Assembly (NCBI GenBank): GCA_025499705.1
Contig: JAFMVE010000005.1
Location: 124,001 to 188,000 of the forward strand
Direction of reading: 5' to 3'
Length of the DNA stretch: 64,000 bases
Source: Carboxylicivirga caseinilyticus
GTDB lineage: Bacteria; Bacteroidota; Bacteroidia; Bacteroidales; Marinilabiliaceae
Both the position numbers and the translations under genes were made by a program. A model generated the notes under the pieces. It was not told the DNA's origin and ran no database searches. It saw nothing but the letters and a program-made list of their open reading frames with translations. Position 1 is the stretch's first letter, and the number at the start of each line of letters is the position of its first letter. This document shows positions 29,800 through 57,079 of the stretch, piece after piece.

Positions 29800-29874
29800 G
29801 GTGAATGTAGCTCAGTCGGTTAGAGCGCTGGATTGTGGTTCCAGAGGTCGCCGGTTCGAACCCGGTCTTTCACC
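29800..29874 (+). tRNA. tRNA-His (anticodon GTG)
   Basis: A full cloverleaf can be folded. The acceptor is at 29801-29807 with 29867-29873. The D arm is GCTC/GAGC. The anticodon stem CTGGA/TCCAG has loop TTGTGGT (anticodon GTG at 29835-29837). The T arm is GCCGG/CCGGT with loop TTCGAAC. The extra G at 29800 pairs with discriminator C at 29874, the identity feature of tRNA-His. The acceptor stem has a U-U mismatch at its sixth pair. The CCA end is not encoded. Confidence 0.97.
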
Positions 29875-49848: not shown

Positions 49849-49879
49849 TTTGGAGTTAACGAAATCAATTCTACATTTG
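49849..49879 (+). promoter_or_regulatory. canonical promoter of the ilv-leu locus
   Basis: TTTG (49849-49852), exactly 19 bases, then TACATTTG (49872-49879). This is the best match in the window to TTTG-N19-TAnnTTTG. Transcription would start near 49885, about 19 bases before the leader ATG. Confidence 0.82.
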
Positions 49880-49903
49880 CTACCGTAAAAAGCACAAGCA
49901 TAG

Positions 49904-49966
49904 ATGAAATTCAACTTAACACTCGTTCTCGATATTATTATTATTCTCTTAGTCATTATTAGCTGA
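49904..49966 (+). CDS. ilv-leu leader peptide
   Basis: The short open frame of 20 codons plus TGA reads MKFNLTLVLDIIIILLVIIS. Thirteen of 20 codons are for Leu, Ile or Val, including nine in a row (codons 11-19). It lies between a strong promoter and a terminator, upstream of ilvD. This is the hallmark of ribosome-mediated attenuation: scarcity of charged branched-chain tRNAs stalls the ribosome and lets the operon be read. It is not expected to have a function as a peptide. Confidence 0.88.
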   Translation: MKFNLTLVLDIIIILLVIIS

Positions 49967-49971
49967 GGGTC

Positions 49972-50046
49972 GTGAGAATGGTGTATAGTTAATTGAATAT
50001 AAGATATTATTAAGCCTTTCTCACACATGAGAAAGGCTTTTTTTTT
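49972..50046 (+). promoter_or_regulatory. ilv-leu attenuator (antiterminator and terminator)
   Basis: The terminator is AAGCCTTTCTCA (50012-50023), loop CACA, TGAGAAAGGCTT (50028-50039), then a T run to 50046. The antiterminator is GTGAGAA (49972-49978), which can pair with TTCTCAC (50018-50024) and so destroy the terminator arm. TTCTC in leader codons 14-15 (49944-49948) can in turn pair with GAGAA (49974-49978) when no ribosome stalls there. Confidence 0.85.
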
Positions 50047-50070
50047 AAGCAAAACAACCATAAAAATCAA

Positions 50071-51900
50071 ATGAAACGAATTTTAAGAAGCGCAACAACA
50101 ACAGAAGGAAGACGAATGGCAGGAGCCCGCAGTCTTTGGCGAGCCAACGGAATGAAAGAAAATCATTTTGGCAAGCCTGTTATTGCAGTTGTTAATTCAT
50201 TTACACAGTTTGTACCTGGTCATGTTCATTTGCACGACATAGGTCAAATGGTAAAGCAACGCATTGAAGCAAATGGATGTTTTGCTGCTGAATTCAATAC
50301 AATAGCCATCGACGATGGTATTGCCATGGGGCACGATGGTATGTTATACTCTTTGCCATCTCGTGATATTATTGCCGATAGTGTTGAATACATGGCCAAT
50401 GCACACAAAGTAGATGCAATGGTTTGTATCAGTAACTGCGATAAAATTACTCCGGGAATGTTGATGGCTTCCATGCGATTGAACATCCCAACTATTTTTG
50501 TTTCCGGTGGACCAATGGAAGCTGGTAAAGTAGGAAACAAAGCATTAGACTTGGTTGATGCAATGGTAATGGCTGCTGATGACTCAGTTTCGGATGAAGA
50601 AGTTAATGCTGTTGAGCGCAATGCATGTCCTACATGTGGTTCATGTTCAGGTATGTTTACTGCAAACTCAATGAACTGCCTGAATGAAGCAATCGGATTA
50701 GCTTTACCAGGAAACGGAACCATTGTTGCGACTCATCAGAACCGTAAAGGTTTATTTGAAAAAGCAGCCGACTTAATTGTAGATATTACTTATAAATATT
50801 ATCGCGATGGTGACGATTCTGTATTGCCTCGCTCAATTGCCACTTACAAGTCATTCGAAAATGCAATGACATTGGATATAGCCATGGGTGGTTCAACTAA
50901 TACAGTATTGCATATTTTAGCAATCGCCCACGAAGCAGGCGTTGATTTCAACATGGATGATATTGACCGCTTATCGCGTAAAACTCCTGTATTATCTAAA
51001 GTAGCTCCAAACTCGCATTATCATATCGAAGACGTTAACCGTGCTGGTGGGATCTTGGGTATCTTAGCCGAATTAAACCGCGGAGGATTATTACATACTG
51101 ATGTAAGTCGTATTGATTACCCAACGTTGGCTGATGCATTGAAAGATTATGATGTTGCAGGTGGTACTGCCACTGAAAATGCTTATGAAGTGTATTCAAG
51201 TGCTCCGGCAGGTATGTTTAATCTTACTATGGGTTCGCAAAAAACAAAATATGCTGAGTTGGATTTAGATCGCCAGAAAGGTTGTATCCGCGATATCGAA
51301 CATGCCTATTTTCAAGATGGAGGTTTAGCTGTTTTATTTGGTAACTTGGCAGAAAAGGGATGTATCGTAAAAACTGCCGGTGTAGATGAATCAATCTTCA
51401 CCTTTAACGGAACTGCTCGTGTTTATGAATCGCAAGATGAAGCCATCGATGGTATTTTGTCTGATGAAGTTAAAGCAGGTGATGTGGTAATCATCAGATA
51501 CGAAGGACCTAAAGGCGGACCAGGTATGCAGGAAATGCTATATCCAACTTCTTATCTTAAATCAAAACATTTAGGAAAAGCCTGTGCCTTATTAACTGAT
51601 GGTCGCTTTTCAGGTGGTACCTCTGGTTTATCTATTGGTCATGCATCACCCGAAGCCGCAGCCGGTGGAAACATTGCATTGGTACAAAATGGTGATCCTA
51701 TCACAATTGATATTCCCAACAGAAAAATTGAACTCAATATCTCAGACGAAGAACTGGCTCAACGCCGTAAGGAAGAGGAAGCAAAAGGAAGTTTAGCTTT
51801 CAAACCCGGTGATCGAGTCAGGAACATTTCTAAAGCTTTAAAAGCCTACGCCAGCCTGGTAAGTTCAGCTGATAAAGGCGCAGTGAGATTAATTGATTAA
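50071..51900 (+). CDS. ilvD: dihydroxy-acid dehydratase
   Basis: This Fe-S enzyme dehydrates dihydroxy acids in the third common step of Ile and Val synthesis. The protein has 609 residues. Cluster cysteines are in [11 protein letters not shown] (about 122) and [20 protein letters not shown] (about 188-207). The C-terminal block [20 protein letters not shown] holds the catalytic Ser. It is the first structural gene after the attenuator. The antisense open frame inside it is a shadow. Confidence 0.97.
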
Positions 51901-53699: not shown

Positions 53700-53745
53700 A
53701 TCGATATCAGATTCTTATAAAATTAGATTTTAGAAATTAAAAATG

Positions 53746-53786
53746 GAGAATGATAATAAGCCATTAAGCTAGCTTCGATCATTCTC
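53746..53786 (+). promoter_or_regulatory. hairpin before ilvN
   Basis: GAGAATGAT pairs with ATCATTCTC (9 bp) around a 23-base loop that itself contains the palindrome AAGCTAGCTT. No T run follows. It ends 19 bases before the ilvN ATG and may affect mRNA stability or translation. Confidence 0.55.
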
Positions 53787-53805
53787 ATATCTAAAAAAAG
53801 AAAAG

Positions 53806-54412: not shown

Positions 54413-55459
54413 ATGGCAAAAATTAATTTCGGAGGAACTGAAGAAAACGTTGTAATGAGGGAAGAGTTCCCATTGGAAAAAGCACGCGAAGTATTAAAAG
54501 ACGAAACCATTGCGGTAATCGGATATGGTGTGCAAGGTCCTGGACAATCTCTTAACCTTAAGGATAACGGTTTCAACGTAATCATTGGTCAGCGTAAAGA
54601 ATCAAAAACATGGGATAAAGCAATTGCTGACGGATGGGTTCCCGGAGAAACACTTTTTGAAATTGAAGAAGCTCTAGAACGCGCAACAATTATTCAGTAT
54701 CTTCTTTCTGACGCTGGTCAGATTCAGATGTGGGATACAGTTAAAAAACACTTAACTCCTGGAAAAGCCCTTTACTTCTCTCACGGATTTGGTATTACTT
54801 ACAAAGAACGCACTGGTATTGTACCTCCTGCCGATGTAGATGTTATTTTGGTTGCTCCTAAAGGATCAGGAACCAGCTTACGTCGCATGTTCCTTGAAGG
54901 ACGTGGTTTGAACTCAAGCTTCGCTATCTTTCAGGATGCTACCGGTAAAGCATGGGATCGCGTAATTGCATTAGGTATCGGAGTAGGTTCTGGTTACCTG
55001 TTCGAAACTGATTTTAAACGTGAGGTTTATTCTGACTTAACTGGTGAGCGTGGTACTTTAATGGGATGTATCCAGGGTATTTTTGCTGCTCAGTACGAAG
55101 TATTACGTGCAAATGGTCACTCTCCATCTGAGGCTTTCAACGAAACAGTTGAAGAATTAACTCAAAGTTTGATGCCATTGGTTGCTGAAAACGGTATGGA
55201 CTGGATGTATGCCAATACATCAACTACAGCTCAGCGTGGTGCATTAGACTGGTGGAAACCATTCCGCGATGCTACCAAGCCAGTATTTGAAAAATTATAT
55301 AGCGAAGTTGCTGCCGGTAACGAGGCACAACGTTCGATTGATTCAAACAGCCAGCCAGATTATAGGGTTAAACTGGAAGAGGAACTCAAAGAACTCCGCG
55401 AATCGGAGATGTGGCAAGCAGGTGCTGCTGTCCGTAAATTGAGACCAGAAAACCAGTAA
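54413..55459 (+). CDS. ilvC: ketol-acid reductoisomerase
   Basis: It isomerizes and reduces acetolactate using NAD(P)H and Mg, the second common step. The protein has 348 residues. The nucleotide loop is GYGVQGPGQSLNLKDNG followed by GQRKESKTWDKA. The catalytic region includes YFSHGFGITYKER, VILVAPKGSGTSLR, and SDLTGERGTLMGCIQGIFAA with metal-binding acidic residues. Confidence 0.96.
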   Translation: MAKINFGGTEENVVMREEFPLEKAREVLKDETIAVIGYGVQGPGQSLNLKDNGFNVIIGQRKESKTWDKAIADGWVPGETLFEIEEALERATIIQYLLSDAGQIQMWDTVKKHLTPGKALYFSHGFGITYKERTGIVPPADVDVILVAPKGSGTSLRRMFLEGRGLNSSFAIFQDATGKAWDRVIALGIGVGSGYLFETDFKREVYSDLTGERGTLMGCIQGIFAAQYEVLRANGHSPSEAFNETVEELTQSLMPLVAENGMDWMYANTSTTAQRGALDWWKPFRDATKPVFEKLYSEVAAGNEAQRSIDSNSQPDYRVKLEEELKELRESEMWQAGAAVRKLRPENQ

Positions 55460-55477
55460 TAATATTCAACCATACTC

Positions 55478-55512
55478 AACACCGGATAAAACAAAACAAA
55501 TTATCCGGTGTT
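55478..55512 (+). terminator. hairpin after ilvC (weak terminator)
   Basis: AACACCGGATAA pairs with TTATCCGGTGTT (12 bp) around an 11-base loop. Only TTT and then A-rich sequence follow, so read-through is likely. It separates ilvDBNC from leuACD. Confidence 0.65.
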
Positions 55513-55526
55513 TATAAAAGGTTGAA

Positions 55527-55561
55527 ACTCCATTAATACTTAGGGGAAAAGGTAATGGAGT
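55527..55561 (+). promoter_or_regulatory. hairpin before leuA
   Basis: ACTCCATTA pairs with TAATGGAGT (9 bp) around a 17-base loop, 21 bases before the leuA ATG. It resembles the hairpin before ilvN in stem length and distance to the start. Confidence 0.5.
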
Positions 55562-55582
55562 AATCATTTAAACCCGATTATC

Positions 55583-57079
55583 ATGAGTAATAAAGTATAT
55601 ATATTCGATACAACTTTAAGAGACGGCGAGCAGGTGCCGGGATGTCAGTTAAACACTATTGAGAAAATAGAAGTAGCCCGTCAGCTCGAGAAGCTTGGTG
55701 TGGATGTAATCGAAGCAGGATTCCCCGTTTCAAGCCCGGGTGATTTTAACTCGGTGGTTGAAATATCTAAAGCTGTAACAAACCCAACTATTTGTGCTTT
55801 GACACGTGCCGTTAAAAAAGATATTGAAGTAGCAGCAGATGCACTTAAATATGCAAAAAACGGACGTATCCATACAGGTATCGGTACTTCACCATACCAT
55901 ATAAAGTACAAATTGAATTCTAATGAAGACGAAATTATTGAAAGAGCTGTTGAAGCTGTTAAATATGCTCGCCGTTTTGTTGAAGACGTAGAATTCTATG
56001 CCGAAGATGCCGGTCGTTCTGATAACGAATATCTGGCACGTGTAGTTGAAGCAGTTATTAAAGCCGGTGCTACCGTAATTAATATCCCTGACACAACCGG
56101 ATATTGCTTACCAGCTGAATACGGAGCTAAAATTGCTTATTTGGTTAACAATGTTCCAAACGTTGATAAAGCCATTCTTTCAACACATTGCCATAACGAT
56201 CTTGGTATGGCTACCGCTAATACTTTATCTGGTGTGATTAATGGTGCCCGTCAGGTTGAGGTTACCATCAACGGATTAGGTGAACGCGCGGGTAATACGT
56301 CTTTAGAAGAAGTGGTAATGGCAATGCGATGCCACCACGATTTGAATTTCGATACTTCGATTGATACCACTCAGATAATGAAAACCAGTAAGCTGGTTTC
56401 AACATTAATGCGCATGCCTGTTCAGGCTAACAAGGCTATTGTAGGCCGAAACGCTTTTGCTCATTCATCGGGTATCCATCAGGATGGAGTATTGAAAAAT
56501 CGTGAAAACTACGAAATTATCGATCCTGCAGATGTAGGCGTAAAAGAGTCGAGTATTGTATTAACCGCCCGTAGTGGTCGTGCTGCTCTTAAGCATCGCC
56601 TGAGTGTATTGGGATACGATTTCGACGGAGAAGAACTAAACGACATCTATCAGCGATTCCTGGAATTGGCTGACAGAAAGAAAGATGTTGCTGACGAAGA
56701 TTTGGAAGCTTTGGCTGGTACTGAGCGAATCAAAGAAGATCGTTCTATCAAGCTTGAAACCCTTCAGGTTGTTGCAGGTAGTTCTACTGTTCCAACTGCA
56801 ACCGTTGCAGTAAGCTTTAATGGCGACACATTTGTTGAAACAGCCTCAGGAAACGGACCAATTGACGCTGCTTTTACAGCCGTTAAAAAGTTGGTTAAAC
56901 GTAAAGTTCACCTTGAAGAATTTTTGATTCAAGCTATCACACGTGGTAGTGACGACATTGGTAAGGTACATGTTCAGATTGATCATAAAGGCCAGTCGTT
57001 CTATGGCTTTTCTGCCAACGTTGACATTGTAACTGCTTCGGTGGAAGCATTTTTAGATGCTATCTCAAAAATAGGATAA
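55583..57079 (+). CDS. leuA: 2-isopropylmalate synthase
   Basis: It condenses acetyl-CoA with 2-ketoisovalerate, the first step of leucine synthesis. The protein has 498 residues. [16 protein letters not shown] is the active-site DRE-TIM start, [14 protein letters not shown] holds metal-binding His residues, and [19 protein letters not shown] follows. A C-terminal regulatory domain (about 390-498) can bind leucine. A second, distant paralog is encoded at 59300. Confidence 0.95.

Follow-up and report, generated by a model that had tools for sequence, protein, structure and literature searches.

The ilv-leu operon and the region before ilvD

The window, by which we mean the whole 64,000-nucleotide stretch of DNA that was analysed, belongs to a 5.65-Mb Bacteroidales genome (G000) and contains an ilv-leu operon. 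Its genes follow one another on one strand in the order ilvD-ilvB-ilvN-ilvC-leuA-leuC-leuD-cimA, 3' of the leader region described here, and are probably co-transcribed. The last gene gave CimA as its best NCBIfam match, at 665.8 bits against a cut-off of 950, and is best called citramalate-synthase-like. Among named records, the IlvD closest to that of the window came from Carboxylicivirga linearis (95%; L104), and most of the remaining top records were also from Carboxylicivirga. By eye, we noted two further features: between ilvB and ilvN (53742-53790), a repeat that resembles a hairpin, GGAGAATGATAA ... GATCATTCTC, and, from 60879 onward, a leuB-like frame that begins after cimA. The features of the locus, in window coordinates, are as follows.

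49849-49879, forward strand: promoter of Bacteroidota type, with TTTG (49849-49852), a 19-base spacer and TACATTTG (49872-49879); from sequence and a script check
49904-49966, forward strand: leader peptide ORF MKFNLTLVLDIIIILLVIIS, ATG at 49904, stop TGA at 49964-49966; from sequence, script and conservation
49919-49930, forward strand: region 1, the main protector arm ACACTCGTTCTC, in codons 6-9; from the minimum-energy fold and synonymous recodings
49944-49948, forward strand: TTCTC in codons 14-15, a repeat of the protector motif; pairing with region 2 seen in 95.5% of cells across 30 ilvD leaders
49972-49984, forward strand: region 2, comprising the antiterminator GTGAGAA (49972-49978) with GG (49980-49981), and the protector's other arm GAGAATGGTGT (49974-49984)
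50012-50046, forward strand: region 3:4, an intrinsic terminator with a 12-bp stem, CACA loop and T run; from sequence and fold
50071-51900, forward strand: ilvD, which encodes dihydroxy-acid dehydratase and opens the operon; scores over cut-off for NF009103 and TIGR00110
51963-60826, forward strand: ilvB, ilvN, ilvC, leuA, leuC, leuD and the cimA-like gene; NCBIfam matches over cut-off for ilvB through leuD

The original prediction, made by reading the sequence, had proposed a TTTG-N19-TACATTTG promoter at this site, and both direct reading and a script confirmed it. TAnnTTTG has been described as the flavobacterial -7 box (PMC9723704), and a TTTG-N18-20-TANNTTTG arrangement was present within 420 bases of ilvD in 25/30 relatives' regions, the window counted. 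The proposed 20-codon leader was also found as described, with 13 Leu, Ile or Val codons, nine of which are consecutive and make up codons 11-19. The same holds for the 12-bp terminator with its T run, which consists of a 5' arm (50012-50023), a loop (50024-50027), a 3' arm (50028-50039) and Ts up to 50046. Terminator and antiterminator have TTCTCAC (50018-50024) in common. Every coordinate given in the original prediction was confirmed. RNA from 49880 to 50060 folded at -42.6 kcal/mol, compared to a shuffle mean of -28.06 (sd 3.46; z -4.20), and none of 200 shuffles was as low.

Could the leader be a chance ORF? Across both strands of the whole window, two ORFs had at least seven consecutive Leu/Ile/Val codons, one of them the leader, and five shuffled windows had 1, 1, 0, 0 and 2. 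A run of such codons is thus not rare by itself, but the conserved arrangement is, and chance was rejected as an explanation; it is position, terminator and conservation, rather than the codon run alone, that set the leader above chance. By eye, no second Leu/Ile/Val-rich leader was seen before leuA in the 55459-55583 gap, or in other gaps that were read.

Leaders in relatives and before other amino acid operons

To avoid selecting loci by the leader itself, relatives were chosen with IlvD only. Sixty were searched and 48 matched, one of which (G026) was left out as a fragment at a contig end. In all of the best 30 IlvD loci, the 420 bases next to ilvD contained a leader rich in Leu/Ile/Val and, after it, a terminator. 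The leader was also present in 15 of 17 further loci (L092 and L094 had none), giving 45/47 upstream regions with a leader, the window counted. A second set comprised 80 named records, again chosen by IlvD and partly overlapping the first in species, of which 79 were used (L130 had too little upstream DNA). Here a leader was present in 66/79 regions and a leader with terminator in 57/79, compared to 7/79 and 1/79 on the reverse strand and 22/237 and 0/237 in shuffles. Whether the leader codons stayed Leu/Ile/Val-rich in relatives had been set beforehand as a test of the original prediction, and in these two sets they did. Records from Bacteroides, Alistipes, Dysgonomonas, Thermophagus and Mangrovibacterium are among the carriers; L180, which is counted in the 66, is doubtful, as its title is Spirochaetales and it is without a terminator.

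The leader attenuator is not universal before ilvD. By the criterion used, it was absent in 13/79 named regions, including one Paramuribaculum and one Muribaculaceae record. Six of these carry Bacteroidota titles (L120, L149, L158, L166, L171, L174) and seven are titled outside Bacteroidota (Desulfobulbaceae, Spirochaetaceae bins and the like). The latter (L133, L151, L159, L163, L165, L168, L172) encode an IlvD about 71-74% identical to that of the window; ilvD may have been transferred without its regulator, or the bins may be mislabelled.

A covariance model, R1, was built from 30 leaders. It matched once in the genome of the window, in 55/395 class genomes at E<=0.01 and in 79/295 order genomes at E<=0.001; these genome counts are low estimates, since the model is tuned to the ilvD-leader family and the search filters were strict. 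At E<=0.1 there were 117 matches, of which we used 80 and excluded 37; nearly all of the excluded matches were the terminator read on the opposite strand, and two were weak matches on the same strand (L038, L059). Because the model was trained on 30 of the 80 leaders, their likeness is partly by construction, and the IlvD-chosen sets, which have species in common, are the fair test.

The R1 loci that were fetched were not confined to ilvD. They included leaders before leuA (7 in one batch of loci, 13 in another), before ilvE-like genes that are followed by ilvD, before an aspartokinase gene (L044) and before hisG (L043). The genome of the window itself has two His-rich leaders in series before hisG, each with a terminator; these are MANRIHHHHHLNLQVR and MNYNRHHKFHHLHTNPQG (L101:1070-1316; G000:C94), with antiterminators at p 0.04 and 0.01. 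In the same genome, a terminator lies before trpE (L102; G000:C112), together with a leader frame in which two Trp codons stand side by side. Thr/Ile-rich leaders stand before an aspartokinase gene at L044, L045, L054 and L058, the gene having been identified for L044 and assigned by eye at the other three, and in them a GGTGTA motif is separate from region 2. A Met/Cys-rich leader frame, MKLTFNLIMCMCFMCLRMRNGSTMHYCKR, with a strong terminator, precedes a nitrite/sulphite reductase gene (L051:132-275); as an attenuator this candidate was rejected, its antiterminator being unsupported (p 0.58). Branched-chain, His, Trp and Thr/Ile leaders thus each precede an operon of the corresponding type, which supports a reading as leader attenuation.

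A terminator and antiterminator would look similar if the sensor were a T-box, a riboswitch or an RNA-binding protein and the ORF incidental. We regard this as very unlikely, since the codon content follows the operon's product, and at gathering score neither the window nor any of 14 related loci yielded a T-box or riboswitch. The only Rfam match in the window at that score was a tRNA (29801-29874), and the 14 related loci had none. At E<=1, the best scores in the leader region were ncr1575 (30.9 bits, cut-off 60) and a PyrR site (28.4 bits, cut-off 54), so a T-box, a riboswitch or a further Rfam family was set aside with no match near cut-off.

Competing helices and modelled ribosome stalling

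The central claim of the original prediction, that GTGAGAA (49972-49978) competes for TTCTCAC (50018-50024), was examined in alignments and in an alignment-free test. In the 30-row alignment, the antiterminator pairs in 80.6% of cells, compared to 41-58% in slid controls. There were 15 doubly changed cells, compared to 5.8 in shuffled columns, and 0/500 shuffles were as high; pairs with both sides changed numbered 4 compared to 2.5, with 48/500 shuffles as high, which is only mildly above expectation. For the terminator, compensatory changes on both sides occurred in 6/11 pairs across 30 relatives. Covariation in the two alternative stems, as had been foreseen, was therefore found in the doubly changed cells of the antiterminator and the compensatory changes of the terminator.

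In the alignment-free test, the stretch before the terminator was paired as a duplex with the 5' arm and loop of the terminator, and its strength was compared with dinucleotide shuffles. The antiterminator reached p<=0.05 in 60/75 model-found leaders (75 of the 80, five having no recognised terminator) and in 59/71 IlvD-chosen leaders, with a mean z of -3.8 (71 of 97 loci, namely those with a leader and a recognised terminator), which upholds the proposed competition. Region 2 varies widely by lineage, for example GTGAGAATGG, CGGGAGAAAGG in Alistipes records and GTGAGGAAGG in Bacteroides pyogenes, and the terminator arm matches the lineage-specific region 2 every time.

Of the helices, the protector has the weakest support; among distant leaders only a minority show it at significance. 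The original prediction had named TTCTC in codons 14-15 as the arm that sequesters region 2. This copy is present and pairs with region 2, but the main arm lies in codons 6-9: in both the minimum-energy fold and the duplex calculation, the stronger partner of GAGAATGGTGT is ACACTCGTTCTC. Across the alignment, 92-95% of protector cells pair but hardly vary, and so give little evidence by covariation. In the window, the protector outperformed synonymous recodings (z -3.3, p 0.005). With recoding by operon codon usage, 19/30 and 14/45 leaders passed, and 18/71 did so in the IlvD-chosen set; when the leaders' own codon usage served as the null, only 6/30 and 11/45 passed.

Codon choice within the leaders follows the pairing. 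Of the Leu codons, 4% are CTC in the window's eight operon genes versus 61% in the 30 leaders, and of the Val codons, 5% are GTC in the operon genes versus 44% in the leaders. CTC is the codon that the TTCTC pairing calls for, and this rare codon might also heighten ribosome stalling. A GGTRTR motif follows region 2 in 24/55 leaders (49980-49988 in the window), compared to a shuffle mean of 6.2 and maximum of 11. A role for it as a polymerase pause signal was considered and dropped, as in many leaders the duplexes show the motif to be the distal arm of an extended protector; the Thr leaders, in which it is placed apart from region 2, may be an exception.

Small hydrophobic membrane peptides of the type I toxin sort exist, and the 20-residue product of the leader ORF is strongly hydrophobic, so that it could be a functional peptide of this kind with a terminator of its own. 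What persists among relatives, however, is the Leu/Ile/Val content, the position before ilvD and the RNA pairing, whereas the peptide sequence drifts. The rare CTC and GTC codons are retained as pairing requires, and the leaders of other amino acid operons are rich in their own amino acid, all of which makes a membrane peptide extremely improbable. A fixed terminator that merely lowers basal transcription without sensing, as might be read from the window terminator being thermodynamically stronger than the antiterminator duplex (about -16.7 versus -14.9), would leave the conserved antiterminator and leader purposeless and is hardly credible.

To model the switch, the transcript was truncated just before region 4 and folded with a ribosome at each codon, an equilibrium calculation without kinetics. 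With the P site at codons 9-15, antiterminator pairs reached at least 85% of maximum in 30/30 ilvD leaders, and with the ribosome at the stop codon they were at or below 30% of maximum in 30/30. For the window, 10.0-11.1 antiterminator pairs were expected with a stall, compared to 3.1 at the stop and 3.7 without a ribosome. The switch modelled in this way agrees with the original prediction that a stall allows the antiterminator and a ribosome at TGA removes it, and a stall switch is well supported by the model. Without a ribosome, the antiterminator remained at 80% of maximum or more in 18/30, at 51-66% in 3/30 and at or below 50% in 9/30, the window among the nine; termination of untranslated transcripts is thus only in part supported by these predictions. 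In the window, the TGA comes early and would halt the ribosome directly ahead of region 2. Six of the 30 relatives (L016, L019, L021, L022, L023, L026) have an ORF that continues through region 2 and stops beyond it, which would likewise block region 2.

Collectively, these findings suggest that 49849-50070 is a ribosome-mediated transcription attenuator of the ilv-leu operon, a reading from sequence and modelling to which we give a probability of roughly 93%. RNA polymerase would transcribe the leader ORF with a ribosome trailing behind. When charged Leu, Ile or Val tRNA is scarce, the ribosome would stall in the Leu/Ile/Val run and free region 2 from region 1; region 2 could then pair with region 3 ahead of the synthesis of region 4, a pairing seen in silico with presumed kinetics, so that no terminator would form and the operon would be read. 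When the amino acids are ample, the ribosome would reach the TGA, where its leading edge overlaps the beginning of region 2, leaving regions 3 and 4 to form the terminator. If the leader is untranslated, region 1 would hold region 2 and transcription would terminate, an outcome that the model predicts in the window and in only a minority of relatives.

Proposed serial attenuators and relation to known systems

Two complete units occur in 3/127 ilvD regions (L125, L126, which is Mangrovibacterium lignilyticum, and L140), where each unit has a leader and a terminator, and its antiterminator reaches p<=0.02. Five loci selected for a look at tandem arrangements were also double, namely the hisG locus L101 and L067, L079, L049 and L047; the first unit of L079 had p 0.16, and the other units had 0.05 or less. 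Apart from L101, the paired attenuators at these loci are of the branched-chain kind and stand before ilvD, ilvE or ilvN. A tandem attenuator with two ORFs has been described for Salmonella mgtCBR, where the signal is different (PMC3641672).

The genes preceded by such leaders raise a broader proposal, that Bacteroidota regularly attenuate their ilv, leu, his, trp and thr operons, some with two serial gates that would both need opening. We hold this to be about an even bet.

Classical leader-peptide attenuators are those of the trp, his, leu, thr and ilv operons of Enterobacteria. Like them, the element before ilvD combines a short ORF rich in end-product codons with antiterminator and terminator helices and a putative protector that share strands, and its stop codon adjoins region 2. 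Unlike them, it belongs to another phylum and leaves the Rfam leader families unmatched at gathering score; its region 1 lies inside the Leu/Ile/Val codons, often as two ATTCTC copies, and the ORF of some relatives continues through region 2. Our literature search, which covered mainly freely accessible papers, found nothing published on Bacteroidota ilv or leu leaders or on amino acid leaders in series. The comparative surveys of Vitreschak and others (2004) and of Lopatovskaya and others (2010) are both said to include Bacteroidetes candidates.

Transcriptome data from Flavobacterium psychrophilum were reported to give strong clues to attenuation by leader peptides ahead of amino acid operons (PMC9723704). 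That proposal concerns the same phylum and mechanism but, in the accessible parts of the paper, names no ilv leader and gives no conserved model or covariation test (PMC9723704). Leader-like small ORFs are mentioned for Bacteroides thetaiotaomicron (PMC7366714). The Bacteroid-trp RNA motif, RF01692, is a candidate cis-regulatory RNA of Bacteroidetes that, by its name, lies before trp genes (PMC2864571); neither the window nor the trpE locus L102 matched it at gathering score. In the actinobacterium C. glutamicum, a branched-chain leader precedes the ilvBNC genes (PMC11857589, PMC10272879), and this system, set beside the window by description only, differs in phylum and in first gene. The kind of attenuator is therefore already known and its version in Bacteroidota was previously suspected, and the element in the window is a well-supported addition. 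What appears to be new is a well-supported Bacteroidota family in which some genomes have two complete attenuators in series.

This family is absent from Rfam and now has a covariance model, and its leader ORFs are likely missed by gene callers. The element before ilvD offers a concrete case for asking if ribosome-RNA polymerase coupling in Bacteroidota, a phylum with differing initiation rules, suffices for attenuation. If Bacteroidota do attenuate their amino acid operons regularly, tight transcription-translation coupling would be required in a phylum mostly without Shine-Dalgarno initiation, and the series arrangement would permit sharper or multi-amino-acid control than a single attenuator.
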